The notes under the pieces: generated by a model
Databases searched by the model: none
What the model was told of the DNA's origin: nothing
Seen by the model: only the letters and a program-made list of their open reading frames with translations
In this document: positions 41,033 through 46,174 of the stretch, one piece after another
How positions within the stretch are numbered: the stretch's first letter is position 1
Layout: the number at the start of each line of letters is the position of its first letter
Program-made: the position numbers and the translations under genes
Assembly: GCA_903907995.1 (NCBI GenBank)
Contig: CAIVQH010000052.1
Span: 1-46,248 of the forward strand
Reading direction: 5' to 3'
DNA from: an uncultured Verrucomicrobiota bacterium
GTDB lineage: Bacteria; Verrucomicrobiota; Verrucomicrobiia; Limisphaerales; UBA9464
Length of the DNA: 46,248 nucleotides

Positions 41033-41222
41033 AGCCGGATCACCTTGGCGACGAAATCGTTAACATGGGCTGGCTTGTAGGAAGGTCTGCTGCCGCCGTC
41101 AATGGCGATGACAGATGTTTTCAGACCGCTTTAACAACCGCACCACGATGGCTGGCGCGGTGTTGACGAGTCTCACGCCACCACGGGCAGGGACGCGGGC
41201 CGGCCTCAGGCGCCACAGGGAC

Positions 41223-41252
41223 AAAAAAAGGCCGCACCGAAGTGCGGCCTTT
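41223..41252 (-). terminator. Intrinsic terminator downstream of the PEP-CTERM gene
   Basis: On the minus strand, an 11-bp stem AAAGGCCGCAC/GTGCGGCCTTT closes a TTCG tetraloop and continues into TTTT. It lies just after the PEP-CTERM gene stop and probably ends the transcript that begins with the phosphoesterase fusion. Confidence 0.92.
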
Positions 41253-41269
41253 GTGGAAGCGATGTCGGA

Positions 41270-41908
41270 TTAGCGACGGACGCGGCGCCAGGCGCCGAAG
41301 GCGAGGAGCAGGCCGCCGGAGGCCGCGGCCCAGAAGCCGGGTTCGGGAACCGCCGTCACCGTCACCGGGATGTCGGTGCCGGAGGCCGTGGCGAAGCTGT
41401 GGGAACCACCGTTGATCGTGATTGTGAACAGCGAGTTATCCGAGGCCGTCGTGGGGATGTTGGCCAGGCTGCTGTCGAGGATGCCGAAGGTGAAGACATC
41501 CGGAGTCACGCCGGCGTCGGCGTTGAGGGTGAGCGAGACGTGGAACGTCAGCGTCGAGCCCGGAGTGAACCCCTGATAGAGCTCGTTAAAGGCCGACGTC
41601 TCCGTCAGCTGCACGCCGCTGACCAGGTCGCCGGAGGCGCCGCCGCTCAGGGTGGCACCGCCGGTGGCGGAGCCGCCGAAGTAGAAGAAGCCGCCGATGT
41701 TGGCCGTGTTGTTGGCGTCGGCGCTGCCGCTGCCGTCATTGAGCTGGAAGTCCAGCGAGAAGGGCCCCGAGGCCTGGCCGATCAGGGGGGCCGTGTTGAT
41801 GGTGACGTCGTATTCGCCGGTCGTGGCGCAGGCGAGCGGGGCGAGCAGAAGCGCGCCCGTCGCGGCGACGAGGCCGGTGACCGAGGTGGAACTGAGCATG
41901 TTCTTCAT
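41270..41908 (-). CDS. PEP-CTERM sorting-signal protein
   Basis: A 212-residue secreted protein. A signal peptide (residues 1-29, ending ACA) is followed by a Gly/Ser/Thr-rich beta domain (TGEYDVTINTAPLIGQASGPFSLDFQLND and GFFYFGG). The C-terminus is a classic PEP-CTERM tail: VPEP (about 187-190), a hydrophobic helix, then a WRRVRR basic end. Such proteins are processed by exosortase and exported with exopolysaccharide; no exosortase gene is in the window. It lies 48 bases downstream of the phosphoesterase fusion gene, so cotranscription is likely. Confidence 0.92.
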   Translation of the reverse strand: MKNMLSSTSVTGLVAATGALLLAPLACATTGEYDVTINTAPLIGQASGPFSLDFQLNDGSGSADANNTANIGGFFYFGGSATGGATLSGGASGDLVSGVQLTETSAFNELYQGFTPGSTLTFHVSLTLNADAGVTPDVFTFGILDSSLANIPTTASDNSLFTITINGGSHSFATASGTDIPVTVTAVPEPGFWAAASGGLLLAFGAWRRVRR

Positions 41909-41956
41909 ATTATTTTAGCAAGCTTGGTTGAACTTTCTGTCGTTGGCGGATTGCGC

Positions 41957-44900
41957 TCAGGGGGTGGCGGCGCCGGTGATGGTCCGGGCGACGTAGTTGA
42001 TGCCGCCCGAGGCGGGCTTGACGAACTGGAGCGCCACGCTGACGGAGGCGCCCGGGGCGAGATTGCCCGAGGTGACGGTGATGTAAGGGCTGCCGGTGGG
42101 CGCGTTGTTGGCCGTGGTGCCGGCCGCGTTCGCGAGCGAGGTGCCGGCCGTGAGGCCGTCGAGCGCGAGGCTGATCGGACCGGTGACCGTGACCGAGCCG
42201 TTGTTCTTGACGGTGACCGTCTGGACCAGCTTGTTCAGGCGGCGGTCGAGGACGTAGCCGCCGCGGCTGATCTGCAGCGAGGTGAACACATCGGCGAAGC
42301 TGGCGCCGTTGGCGTCCCGCTGGTTGAGCGACGGGAGGCCGAAGCGCTGCTCGATGGTGGTGAGGATGCCCGAGGTGTCGCGCTGGCGGTGATCCACCAC
42401 GCCCTGCTTGGCGTAGGGCGAGATGACAATGGCCGGAACGCGCACGCCGGGGCCCCAGAGATCGCGGACCGGAGGCGTCACGTGGTCCCAACGGCCACCG
42501 TGTTCATCATAGGTGATGATGATGGCGGTGTGGGCCCACAGGGCGGGATTCGCCTGCACGGCGGCGACGAGATCGGCGACGTGCTGCTGGCCCTGCGCGA
42601 GGGAGGCGTAGCCGGGGTGCTCGTTGTCGGGCCCGAGGAGCTTCACAAACGACACCGAAGGCAGCGTGTTGTTGGCGATGTCGCCATAGATGCCCGTGCC
42701 GGCGCCATGCGAGCCTTCATCCCGCAGGTGCAGGGTCGCATACGGGTTTCGGCCGTCGGCGTGCGTGCCGGTGTAGTCGAACGGTGCCGACTTCGCGAAG
42801 AACGCGAACGCCTGGTGGTGCCACTGGAAGAGCGGATCGACCGTGTTCGGGCCGGAGCTGCCGTAGTGCAGGGGGTTCGAGGGCGAGCTGTCGAGCGCGT
42901 TGTTCCAGCCGCCCGAATACCACGCCCAGCTCACGCCGGCGTTGTCGAGGAGATCGCCGATGTTGAGCGGCGTCGCGGTGTTGTCCTGCAGCGGGATCAG
43001 ACTGACGGGGAAGCCCGTGAAGGTGAGGCTCACACCGGTCTGCGTGACGGTCGGCTTCTTCGACAGGCCGATCGTGCCGCCGCTGACGGAGGTGACCACT
43101 GTGCCCGCCTGGATGCCGGTGCCGCTGACGGTCATGCCCACATTGTTGGCGCCCAGACGCGTGCCGGACGCGCCCGTCACGTTGAAGCTCGTGGAATCGA
43201 GATTGCCCGTGGCGTTGGTCGCGAACGTCGTGGTGCTCGTCGCGAGGGAGCGCGAGAACGAGGTGTTCACGACGTAGTGCTTGTCGAAGTGCGAACCGTC
43301 CTGGAAGGACACGTCGCTCGGTGACGCCGACCCGCTCACCGTCGCGCTTTGATTTGCCACGCCGTTGATGCGGAGGCCGATCAGCGTGTCGCCCGCCACC
43401 GGCGTGATGCTGCCGTCGCGGATGAGCTTGCCGACCGCCGGATTGCCGCCCGTGTCGTTCCCCGAGGTGTTGGCCTGCACGAGGCCGGTCGGGTCGAGGT
43501 AGGCGAGGGCACCGGAGTTGCCCGCCCAACCGGAGACGGGATCATAGCCCGGCATGTTGTTGTACACCGGCGCCGCCGCCGCGATGAAGAACTGGTGGTT
43601 CAGGAACGAGCCGCCGAAGGACGAGTGGAAGAAGTTGTCACACATCACGTACTGCTGGGCGAGCAGGCCTTCCGGCAGGTAGCTGGCGTCGAAGTAGCTC
43701 ATGACCAGGCCCGGGTTGTCGGACCAGGTGGCGAAGCCACTGTTGTTGCGGTGGTCCGTGCCGAGCACATCCGCACCGGCGATCTGGAACATTTCCTGCC
43801 AGTACCGATGGACGATGTCGCCGGAATTGCCGGTGGTCGCGACGTAAGGCGCGATGTTATACGGAAGCAGCGTGTTGACCTTCAGCGCGCTGGTGGCATC
43901 GGCCGGATTCGTGCTGAAGCTGGTGTCGATGAATGCCGTCGAGCCATTCCCCGAATTGTAGCGGATCGGCTGCGGCGGGATGTTCAGGTAGCCCGGGGTG
44001 CCGACGGTGTTGCCGGACGTCTCGAGGCCGCTGCCGCTGTAACGGTCGAAGCCGTTGCTGGCGGCGAGGCCGCTCAGCGGATTGCCGGAGACACGGTCAA
44101 TCTGGTTCAGCGAACCAGCGCTGGCGTTGGCCCGGCCGTTCGCGCCGGGGAAGCTGCCGTAGAGGGCGTCGAAGCTCCAATTTTCTTGATAGACCACGAT
44201 GATGTGGTCGATGTTGTTGATCGCGCTGGCCGCATCCACCTGGAAGCTGAAGAGCACTTGCTCGGGATTGCTGGCCGCATTGTATTCCAGGAAGCTGTTT
44301 TGCGCCGTGGAGTTGATGCCGTAGCTCTTCACGGTGAGCGTCTTGCCGTCCGGACTCACGTCCAGCGTGTTGTAGTTGAACGTGTCCGGGCTGTAGAAGT
44401 CCACCGGCTGTCGCAGCGTGTCCGCGTCAGGATCGTTCAGGCGGGTGACATTGTGCAGGCCGGGATAGCCGGCGAGGCCGATCGGGTCCACGCCGGCGGC
44501 GACCTGGGCCGCCGCGATGCTGTCGGCCAATGGCTTCGCCATGCCGGCGAAGCTGTGGTTGGTGATGAGGTCGGGACCGGTCGCGCCCAACGGGCCGCAG
44601 ACGATCTCGAAGCAGTAGGGAACCTTGACGTAGCTCGACTGGACTCCCGTCTGGCCGGTGGGCGAGTAGGTGAGTTCGTTGACGCGGTTCTGATGGTCGT
44701 CCGTCGCCAGGAAGACGACGTTCTTGATCTGGTGATCCGCGATAAACTTGAGCAGCGCATTGCGTTCGGCGCGGTAACCGCCGATCCAGGACTTGCCACC
44801 GTCGCTCGCCACCGGGGCGTAGGTGCTCCCGGCGCCGAAGCTGGGAAGGTTGTTGAGGGTCAGCGCCCCGCCGATCGGACCGAGCTGGTCAATGGGATCG

Positions 44901-46090
44901 GAGATGTTGACGAATTTCCACGTCGTGCCGGCCTGCTCGGCGGCGAGGAGCGTGCTTTCCAGCCAGGCGAGCTGCGTGACACCGAGATAGGTGCGGCTCG
45001 CATTGTCCCCGCGTGAACCGGTGTCGTCGGCATTCCCGGAGGTCTTCATGCGGATGTCGCGGTAGCTGCGGCAGTCCGTGTTGACGAAGAGGGCGTTCCG
45101 GCCCCACTGCTGCGCGAAATAGAGCTGCTTGGTTCCGTCTGTGTTCGCGTCGCCGGGCGCGCTGATCGTGCCGCGGTTCTTCATCGGCTGATAGTTCAGG
45201 AACACCTGCTGCAGCGTCTGGAAGCCGCCGGACTTGTTGATGTAGGTGCCGCTGGTGTTGACATCGTTCGAGCTGACGCGCGCATCGACACCCGCGCCGG
45301 ACGAGAAATCACCGACCGCGCCACCGGCGGGCGCGCCACCGTTGATATACTGCTTGTTGCCCAGCTCGTGGTTGTCGTAGGTCGTGTAGTTGCCCTGGCC
45401 GGCAAAGAACGACTGGAGGCAGTTCTGGCCGCCGGCATTCACCGGCAGGAACTGCTCCTTATATTTGCGGGAGAACTGCGAGAACAGCTGCGCCTGGGTG
45501 GCGCCAGTGGACGTGGGGCCGGGGAGCGTTCCCGTGCTCGTGACCGCTGCCGAGCCGGTGCTCGCCGTCTCATAGATCGTGTCGCCGTCGAACATGAAGA
45601 AGTCCAGGTTCTTGTTGGGAACCTGGCTGGCCAGGGCGTAAGGGCGGATCAGGCCGTCACAATCGCCGGAGAAGGCGAAGTGGAGCGGGTAGTTCGTCCC
45701 GGCCTGCGGGGCCGTCTTGAACTTGCCGGTGAGGCTCGTCACCGCCCCCGTCTGGAAGCGGTAGTAATAGACAGTCTGCGGTTGCAGCCCCGTCACGTCG
45801 AACTTGACCGTGTAGTCGTTGCCGGCGGCGGTCGTCGTGCTGGCGGTCGCCGTGATCGTGCCGAAGCCCGGATCGGTGGAGACCTGCACGGTCACGCTGG
45901 CCGTGGTCGGGGTGATGTCGTCGGCGGCGCGGGTCCAGACGATGGCTTCATTGCTGGAGACGTCACCGGAGGCCACGCCGAGGAAGGCGACGGCGGCCCA
46001 GGTCGTCATCGACGACAGCGACGCGGCCGAAGCCAGCGCTGCCAGCACCGCCAGACGGCGCCGGCGGGAGGATACGATAGTTGGATTCAT
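41957..46090 (-). CDS. Giant fusion: PhoD-like phosphatase + phospholipase C/acid phosphatase (AcpA)-like phosphoesterase
   Basis: A 1377-residue secreted protein (signal peptide about 1-34, RRRRLAVLAALASAASL; start at 46090). Residues 36-620 are PhoD-like: an Fn3-like N-terminal domain, then the metallophosphatase with FDGD (167-170), YDNHELG (D239-N240-H241) and DDH (464-466). Residues 625-1240 are a PF04185-type phosphoesterase: IDHIIVVYQENWSFDALYG at its start, HSSFGGSFLNHQFF, and ITYDEHGGRWDHVTPP near the end. An extra 90-residue Thr/Ser/Gly segment is inserted at about 940-1030. The last 120 residues are an Ig-like tail. Two different phosphoester-cleaving folds in one chain is unusual. 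Confidence 0.92.
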   Translation of the reverse strand: MNPTIVSSRRRRLAVLAALASAASLSSMTTWAAVAFLGVASGDVSSNEAIVWTRAADDITPTTASVTVQVSTDPGFGTITATASTTTAAGNDYTVKFDVTGLQPQTVYYYRFQTGAVTSLTGKFKTAPQAGTNYPLHFAFSGDCDGLIRPYALASQVPNKNLDFFMFDGDTIYETASTGSAAVTSTGTLPGPTSTGATQAQLFSQFSRKYKEQFLPVNAGGQNCLQSFFAGQGNYTTYDNHELGNKQYINGGAPAGGAVGDFSSGAGVDARVSSNDVNTSGTYINKSGGFQTLQQVFLNYQPMKNRGTISAPGDANTDGTKQLYFAQQWGRNALFVNTDCRSYRDIRMKTSGNADDTGSRGDNASRTYLGVTQLAWLESTLLAAEQAGTTWKFVNISDPIDQLGPIGGALTLNNLPSFGAGSTYAPVASDGGKSWIGGYRAERNALLKFIADHQIKNVVFLATDDHQNRVNELTYSPTGQTGVQSSYVKVPYCFEIVCGPLGATGPDLITNHSFAGMAKPLADSIAAAQVAAGVDPIGLAGYPGLHNVTRLNDPDADTLRQPVDFYSPDTFNYNTLDVSPDGKTLTVKSYGINSTAQNSFLEYNAASNPEQVLFSFQVDAASAINNIDHIIVVYQENWSFDALYGSFPGANGRANASAGSLNQIDRVSGNPLSGLAASNGFDRYSGSGLETSGNTVGTPGYLNIPPQPIRYNSGNGSTAFIDTSFSTNPADATSALKVNTLLPYNIAPYVATTGNSGDIVHRYWQEMFQIAGADVLGTDHRNNSGFATWSDNPGLVMSYFDASYLPEGLLAQQYVMCDNFFHSSFGGSFLNHQFFIAAAAPVYNNMPGYDPVSGWAGNSGALAYLDPTGLVQANTSGNDTGGNPAVGKLIRDGSITPVAGDTLIGLRINGVANQSATVSGSASPSDVSFQDGSHFDKHYVVNTSFSRSLATSTTTFATNATGNLDSTSFNVTGASGTRLGANNVGMTVSGTGIQAGTVVTSVSGGTIGLSKKPTVTQTGVSLTFTGFPVSLIPLQDNTATPLNIGDLLDNAGVSWAWYSGGWNNALDSSPSNPLHYGSSGPNTVDPLFQWHHQAFAFFAKSAPFDYTGTHADGRNPYATLHLRDEGSHGAGTGIYGDIANNTLPSVSFVKLLGPDNEHPGYASLAQGQQHVADLVAAVQANPALWAHTAIIITYDEHGGRWDHVTPPVRDLWGPGVRVPAIVISPYAKQGVVDHRQRDTSGILTTIEQRFGLPSLNQRDANGASFADVFTSLQISRGGYVLDRRLNKLVQTVTVKNNGSVTVTGPISLALDGLTAGTSLANAAGTTANNAPTGSPYITVTSGNLAPGASVSVALQFVKPASGGINYVARTITGAATP

Positions 46091-46174
46091 GGATCTTGGG
46101 GAATGCCACCTAGTATCGTGTAACACATTTTATTTCGCATTGCTTCGGCCGAGTGGCGGGGGTTTGCTCGGGGC

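Follow-up and report, generated by a model that had tools for sequence, protein, structure and literature searches.

A verrucomicrobial fusion of PhoD-like and AcpA-like phosphatase domains with a C-terminal domain genetically paired to a PEP-CTERM protein

The contig CAIVQH010000052.1 of an uncultured Verrucomicrobiota bacterium (assembly GCA_903907995.1), which is called the window over its whole length of 46,248 nucleotides, carries on the minus strand at 41957-46090 a gene in which two unrelated phosphoesterase folds are joined in one chain. A PhoD-like metallophosphoesterase half with an altered metal site is followed by a PF04185 half with an intact AcpA-type site, and the chain ends in a conserved C-terminal domain (CTD) whose genes are tightly paired with genes for a PEP-CTERM protein of the family NF038129. 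From this arrangement we infer export, a shared operon, activity of both halves, docking and anchoring of the chain, and phosphate scavenging. About an even chance is given to the resulting explanation, which draws on sequence and predicted structure, that the cell exports this protein as a double phosphatase and retains it on its surface by means of the CTD and its partner.

Two phosphoesterase folds in one chain

The open reading frame extends from 41957 to 46126 on the minus strand without an internal stop codon, and translation from the ATG at 46090 yields 1377 residues. Its parts are:

41957..46090, minus strand: fusion gene, 1377 residues, comprising leader, PhoD-like half, PF04185 (AcpA-like) half and CTD
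45992..46090, minus strand: probable signal peptide, residues 1-33, read by eye
44231..45991, minus strand: PhoD-like metallophosphoesterase half, residues 34-620, from Pfam, with PhoD_N at 37-126
45353..45376, minus strand: altered metal motif DNHELGNK, residues 239-246, with K246 at the position of the calcium ligand N272 and N240 at that of D266
42278..44221, minus strand: PF04185 AcpA-like phosphatase half, residues 624-1271, from Pfam and an AlphaFold2 model
43607..43609, minus strand: predicted nucleophile Ser828, which pairs in alignment with the GPS serine of AcpA 2d1g and with T158 in plant NPC4
42503..42508, minus strand: D1195-E1196 metal/base pair, acting with E636, N637, H761 and H1158 by prediction
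42986..43234, minus strand: lineage-specific insert, residues 953-1035 (83 residues), of low predicted local distance difference test score (pLDDT)
41960..42271, minus strand: CTD, residues 1274-1377, all-beta and ending in Pro, from alignment and predicted strands

A preliminary description of this DNA had proposed two unrelated phosphoesterase folds in one leader-bearing chain, which is confirmed by the Pfam domains and the predicted folds. In Pfam, the protein gave PhoD_N (37-126, 89.8 bits), PhoD (154-507, 101 bits) and PF04185 (627-1253, 211.9 bits), each above its curated cut-off, and the motifs FDGD (residue 167), DNHE (239), DDH (464), ENWSFDALYG (636) and YDEHGGRWDH (1194) lie in the translated frame where they had been placed. 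Solved relatives detected by sequence comprise AcpA 2d1g, PhoD 2yeq, a further secreted alkaline phosphatase and phospholipases C (PLCs). The structure models agree on the folds, with AcpA recognized in residues 621-1377 of the window protein and PhoD plus AcpA in the orthologue L011 (L numbers denote loci and G numbers genomes). The leader of the window protein contains the stretch SRRRRL; the leaders of its orthologues are likewise charged and hydrophobic at the N-terminus and lack a twin arginine, all of this read by eye. PhoD of Bacillus subtilis is exported via the twin-arginine translocation (Tat) pathway.

The AlphaFold2 model of residues 621-1377 (pLDDT 74.6, predicted template modelling score (pTM) 0.81) matches AcpA 2d1g with Z 36.6, a root-mean-square deviation of 2.6 and 383 aligned residues, followed by PLCs (Z 29.9-35.8) and then by sulfatases and NPPs (Z 17-19). 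AcpA heads the fold rankings, the next PLC trailing by 0.8 to 1.4 Z. Among the NCBIfam models, TIGR03397 (acid_phos_Burk) scores 312.2 bits, under its curated cut-off of 362.75, and TIGR03396 (phosphocholine-specific PLC, PC_PLC) 116.1 bits, under its curated cut-off of 580.25. The former label of this half, PLC/AcpA-like, is thus moved to the AcpA side by the family scores and the best fold match, and phospholipase C is not the preferred assignment; the NCBIfam result is clear, but the fold margin is no more than these 0.8 to 1.4 Z. Membership in the AcpA/PF04185 family is indicated by the Pfam score over the gathering threshold, the fold and the conserved nucleophile and metal/His residues. 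For plant NPC4, PMC9837106 names E23, N24, H79, T158, H264, D299 and E300 as residues that matter, and their counterparts in the window protein are, in this order, E636, N637, H761, S828, H1158, D1195 and E1196. Throughout the 37 aligned sequences S828, H1091, H1092, H1158, D1195, E1196 and H1203 are present; E636 and N637 occur in 36 rows (one gap), as does H761 (one N).

Compared with AcpA-type phosphatases (2d1g; TIGR03397), the half shares the fold and the EN, Ser, HH, HPG/HGG and DE/DD...DH motifs, whereas it falls under the family cut-off, contains inserts, is placed behind PhoD and has a DE instead of a DD metal pair. This DE pair is found likewise in NPC4, and the superfamily fold extends to PlcH/PlcN (TIGR03396) and NPC4 (Z 25-36), although the distance to PlcH/PlcN is evident from a score far under the PC_PLC cut-off (116 vs 580 bits). 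Judged by these comparisons, the half is AcpA-like with its predicted catalytic residues intact. The insert at about 953-1035 occurs, among 13 fusions, in the window protein and L005 only; since the genome offers nothing better than a match of E 0.75 as a possible further copy, the idea of a spread module was rejected.

The fold values for the PhoD-like half come from L011 and not from the window protein, as this full-length orthologue of 1174 residues is short enough to be folded in one piece (AlphaFold2; pLDDT 77.3, pTM 0.73). Residues 1-590 of the model match PhoD 2yeq (Z 26.8, 428 aligned) and residues 591-1096 match AcpA (Z 32.4). This fold, together with the scores of PhoD_N and PhoD over the gathering threshold, places the half in PhoD (PF09423), while the NCBIfam model NF058638 (AlkPhosPhoDBac) gives 91 bits against a curated cut-off of 1000. 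In B. subtilis PhoD, the exchanges C180A, D265A, N271A, N272A and D436A leave no activity, and with D207A or D266A it is strongly reduced (PMC4223295). Mapped by spacing, D265, D266, N271 and N272 correspond to D239, N240, N245 and K246 of the window protein. All 26 rows of the subfamily carry DNHELGN[K/R] (20 K and 6 R; the window is included and some rows are near copies), together with SGD, GD..Y and DDH; eight other PhoD rows read DDHE followed by N[N/D]. For further comparison, 30 other PhoD loci were used, consisting of the canonical PhoD of the genome and 29 loci of best matches from 113 class genomes (with L110 being the same protein as L003 of the preceding comparison). All 30 keep DDH[E/D] and, shortly after it, an adjacent N/D pair; N or D fills the N272 position throughout the 17 loci with the same loop length, the loop being one residue longer in the other 13, where the N272 column is uncertain.

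The ligand set for three metals (Fe, Ca, Ca) found in B. subtilis PhoD is therefore absent, with N at D266 and K/R at N272 in all 26 rows. That both halves retain their catalytic residues, as had been presumed, holds for the PF04185 set but not for the canonical three metal ligands of the PhoD half. On alignment, this half is PhoD-like in fold and not a canonical PhoD, one predicted calcium ligand being lost and another changed. The third metal (calcium B) is probably replaced by the invariant Lys/Arg, leaving a two-metal centre similar to that of purple acid phosphatases (PAPs). Likeness to B. subtilis PhoD (2yeq; PF16655+PF09423) comprises the N-terminal domain, the core fold and the GD..Y, DxHE and DxH motifs; besides the two ligand positions, the larger chain sets the window protein apart, and at the Fe ligand Cys180 an invariant Asp, D143, stands in an ungapped reading, whereas HMMER sets the non-conserved C144 there. 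Plant PAPs match the L011 model with Z about 22, but at an identity of 12-13%. We take NHE and the Asp at the first Fe-ligand position to resemble the PAP motif set, while DDH takes the place of the GHxH motif of PAPs. As the metal motifs are kept in 26/26 rows, a working site is favored over decay.

The C-terminal domain and its partner gene

Downstream of the fusion gene, two further features are located:

41270..41908, minus strand: partner gene, 212-residue PEP-CTERM protein of NF038129 (98.9 bits, cut-off 65), 48 nucleotides past the stop codon of the fusion
41227..41252, minus strand: intrinsic-terminator-like hairpin of 11 pairs with a T run, just after the partner gene

The conserved all-beta CTD is a third module which the preliminary description did not contain, and it is delimited by alignment and AlphaFold2 strands. 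Searched alone, the CTD of the window matched no NCBIfam family at E up to 1, and Pfam returned sub-cutoff Ig/DUF11-like matches only, so that the domain appears Ig-like. A terminal Pro is found in 28/29 CTDs; outside this set, L235 lacks it. The cargo in front of the CTD is diverse: PhoD, PhoD+AcpA and AcpA (L024), a protein with a partial PhoX match (L224:1351-3327; 30.5 bits, cut-off 24), a GH5 cellulase with carbohydrate-binding domains (L219:1303-3891), an arabinofuranosidase-like enzyme (L151), an MBG-repeat protein (L223) and two proteins without a convincing solved relative (L220 and L225). The partner gene is present at the PhoX-like and the cellulase locus as well. L218 (G597) was discarded as an AcpA-only CTD protein, its open frame lying at a contig edge and resembling the L021 genome in open reading frame length and tail. 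CTD-like C-termini without a partner gene were further seen at L222:3186-5837 (phytase-like), L226 (PF04185) and L227-L229, possibly a sister group with another anchor.

The CTD and NF038129 form a tight genetic pair. Within the named set of loci, the partner gene adjoins 10/11 CTD loci, the exception being the broken L022, and it occurs in 0/5 fusions without CTD and 0/4 PhoD-only loci; its absence is least certain at L016, a fusion without CTD for which about 680 nucleotides of downstream DNA are available. All six partner proteins scanned passed the NF038129 cut-off. The same 384 class genomes were searched twice, once with the independent NCBI model of NF038129 and once with the CTD alignment, and all 12 NF038129 matches that reached 59 bits, 11 of them above the cut-off, had a CTD match directly upstream. 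For eight newly fetched regions this CTD was confirmed on the DNA, the other four being already among the named loci. An overlapping sample of the order (320 genomes) added G004, G021 and G715, with the new G715 carrying two tandem CTDs upstream. Across both samples, a CTD gene lies directly upstream of 15/15 NF038129 matches of at least 54 bits, eight of which were unseen during CTD model building (one of these eight, G597, looks like the L021 genome again). In all 23 paired loci, which include L021 and L218 as apparently one genome, the CTD gene is followed directly by the partner on its own strand, with the first ATG 27-93 nucleotides away; a counterpart to the window is the NF038129 gene at L151:3837-4556 behind its CTD gene. 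Conversely, the partner gene stands beside 12 of the 17 class-sample CTD matches that have an E value under 1e-14, a count that excludes 24 weaker matches. The distances of CTDs and partners show a modest correlation (Mantel test, rho 0.37, n=19, L005, L008, L078 and L218 left out), with 30 of 10000 permutations as high. Five flank genes from L006, L010 and L024 matched five different families.

PEP-CTERM genes are reported to form mostly single-gene operons, and members of the class generally show little homology to known proteins (PMC1569441). The NF038129 gene described here instead lies directly behind a CTD gene, which most often encodes an enzyme. A hairpin scan of 41150-42050 found one hairpin, the one listed above, against a mean of 0.5 in shuffled sequences, and none between the two genes; the fusion and its partner may well share one operon. 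In the genome, one homologue of the exosortase TIGR02602 (EpsH) exceeds the cut-off and three remain below it. The surface location put forward earlier for the fusion is plausible in view of the PEP-CTERM partner gene. At the contig terminus (46176-46248, plus strand), the start of a frame resembles, by eye, an IS630-type transposase, and the upstream context of the fusion is lost here.

Recurrence and separate histories of the two halves

The order PhoD then PF04185 recurs in a single frame in 12 further complete loci (L005-L016), giving 13 distinct proteins with that of the window. These belong to a set of 70 loci obtained by scanning one genome per species from 84,980 species, with the architecture called by a BLAST domain scan on the fetched loci using the PhoD half of the window as PhoD query. 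The CTD is present in 7/12 of the other complete fusion loci. By record title all fusions are from Verrucomicrobiota, including Chthoniobacter, Akkermansiaceae, Pedosphaera and less precisely placed metagenome-assembled genomes (MAGs); one fusion comes from a named isolate, Chthoniobacter flavus Ellin428, with a record not marked as a MAG. L005 is 96% identical to the window protein, and L021 is a further fusion cut by a contig edge. Loci titled outside the phylum carry a PF04185 protein in which the BLAST scan with the window PhoD half found no PhoD match. The distribution is patchy: among 387 genomes of the phylum, the window's own genome alone has the fusion among matches at E up to 1e-30, and among 58 genomes (own included) it is confined to G000 and G003. 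Since C60, a canonical PhoD, and further PF04185 proteins are encoded in the same genome, the fusion supplements these enzymes and does not replace them.

That the junction at about 44230 arose by a sequencing or assembly error joining two genes had to be considered, as errors or decay do occur at the related locus L022:4501-7811, where the PhoD part and the PF04185+CTD part lie in different overlapping frames, the middle is missing and the partner gene is absent. Nevertheless, 13 distinct complete chains from separate records, C. flavus among them, share this order, which refutes the explanation and reduces its probability to practically nil.

The two halves appear to have separate histories and to have been exchanged as modules. 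On the PF04185 tree (a quick tree with SH-aLRT support only, without L075 and pieces under 330 residues), the fused domains fall into a single clade with good support, whose 18 rows comprise 14 fused and four counted as standalone. The latter are one from Terriglobia, L023, which is cut at a contig edge and was scored standalone while it may be a fusion, and the complete frames L024 and L025 without PhoD. The fusion label has to change three times on the PhoD tree (without L075, L081 and L082, identical or near to L005, L019 and L020, and without the distant paralogue L003) and four times on the PF04185 tree, counts with which one origin followed by losses and several origins are both compatible. 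In approximately unbiased (AU) tests of the 13 fusions with groups chosen after the trees were viewed, PF04185 rejects a clade of the window with L005 and L006 (p-AU 4.7e-10) and PhoD rejects a clade of the window with L005 and L010 (p-AU 9.6e-49). Likewise, the identity to the C. flavus protein in 60-residue windows is 75-93% over residues 91-630 and 21-77% past the junction. The PhoD subfamily also exists as PhoD alone or PhoD+CTD (L017-L020, L076-L080), L024 is a complete AcpA+CTD protein, and PF04185 relatives stand alone in many phyla. As the end of PhoD abuts the CTD almost directly in L076, L077, L078 and L080, PF04185 sits between parts which are joined elsewhere without it. Two observations on related chains may be added: five fusions (L011, L012, L014-L016) grouped on the PF04185 tree have a different tail (..FYRL..) and no NF038129 neighbour, and L025:5116-9114 is a 1333-residue frame with three tandem PF04185 stretches, another multi-phosphatase chain.

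Possible function, competing explanations and meaning

In the favored explanation, the leader would export the chain, and both halves would hydrolyse phosphate esters outside the cytoplasm and thereby feed phosphate to the cell. The PhoD half would work with two metals, its third site being occupied by Lys/Arg, whereas the AcpA-type half, with a chemistry assumed by homology, would act via phospho-Ser828 assisted by E636, N637, D1195, E1196 and His residues. The CTD would serve as a plug-in domain which docks to, or matures with, the PEP-CTERM protein from the next gene, and anchoring of this partner by the exosortase would hold the enzyme on the surface of the cell or within the exopolysaccharide. 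The more general proposal, that the CTD and NF038129 constitute a plug-in surface-display system in which an all-beta tail of about 105 residues on an exported hydrolase binds a dedicated exosortase-sorted partner, with the fusion as one modular product, is held tentatively, somewhat below an even chance. Under this proposal five or more types of enzyme would bear the tail (PhoD, AcpA, PhoX-like, GH5 cellulase and arabinofuranosidase-like) and the PhoD half would represent a new subclass with Lys/Arg replacing the third metal, a joint reading which is equally tentative. Several observations weigh against the favored explanation. Five of the 17 strong CTD matches lack a partner gene (G665:C7 with 113 bits, and G658, G528, G495 and G476 with 56-85 bits), as do the broken L022, the second, partial CTD of L008 and four weak CTD matches (L152-L155), one of which, G013, is also among the 24 weaker matches of the class sample. 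Moreover, the next NF038129 match, G601 at 49 bits, is without CTD, the five fusions with a different tail have no partner gene, and a shared operon could mean shared regulation only. With respect to the metal site, N272A is inactive and D266A little active on p-nitrophenyl phosphate in B. subtilis PhoD (PMC4223295), so that standard substrates might not be cleaved by the PhoD half.

The same D266N and N272K/R exchanges, at positions needed for the activity of B. subtilis PhoD, and the N or D at position 272 in 17/17 comparable loci would also fit a PhoD half that has lost its phosphatase function and serves for substrate binding or structure, leaving all hydrolysis to the AcpA half. The other metal-motif residues are, however, invariant in 26/26 rows, and an active site is the simpler reading because the PhoD-alone and PhoD+CTD chains have no second phosphatase; loss of activity is considered unlikely. 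If both halves are active, they may be two independent phosphatases which share an export signal and a tail without handing over substrate, the fusion adding surface dose or substrate range. The differing phylogenies of the halves, the occurrence of each without the other in front of the same CTD (PhoD in L076-L078 and L080, AcpA in L024) and the standalone PF04185 relatives support such independence, and its probability falls barely short of even. The retention of both halves in one chain in several families nevertheless suggests some benefit of linkage, and the groups for the AU tests were chosen with the trees already in view. A two-step process, with the PhoD half as diesterase followed by the AcpA half as monoesterase on one polymer or phospholipid head group, had been put forward in the preliminary description. 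It accords with the phosphodiesterase activity of B. subtilis PhoD (PMC4223295), the hydrolysis of monoesters by AcpA (PMC9837106) and the presence of both folds in one chain of the orthologue model. The non-canonical PhoD site, the relative domain orientation left undefined by the model and the domain-wise swapping, which speaks against a finely tuned channel, make it distinctly unlikely, and nothing found favors two steps over two independent activities.

The role of the tail can likewise be read differently. Type IX secretion uses C-terminal domains as sorting signals, and the CTD itself might be a secretion or sorting signal, with the PEP-CTERM neighbour having another role in the operon. 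The C-terminal all-beta domain joined to unrelated cargo, its nearly invariant terminal Pro (lacking in L235) and the strong CTD matches without partner gene (5/17) are consistent with this. On the other hand, the CTD of the window matches no NCBIfam family, and a dedicated pair fits better than a general sorting signal because CTDs are few per genome (32 of the 33 CTD-bearing genomes of the class sample have at most two) and 12/17 strong ones have their own partner, which renders a sorting signal rather unlikely.

The two enzyme families are already known, as are the PEP-CTERM family and sorting by exosortase. No description of the PhoD+PF04185 fusion or of the CTD/NF038129 pair was recognized in the literature searched, which mostly did not cover subscription journals, and the fusion may stand in domain-architecture databases. 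The gene phoD is often used as a marker for the use of organic phosphate in soils. Such a marker may overlook or misinterpret the present subfamily, whose metal site is changed and which also occurs fused to a second phosphatase. If the CTD and its partner are indeed a display pair, a function would be assigned to one family of PEP-CTERM proteins, and it would be shown how the Gram-negative Verrucomicrobiota keep hydrolases on their surface.

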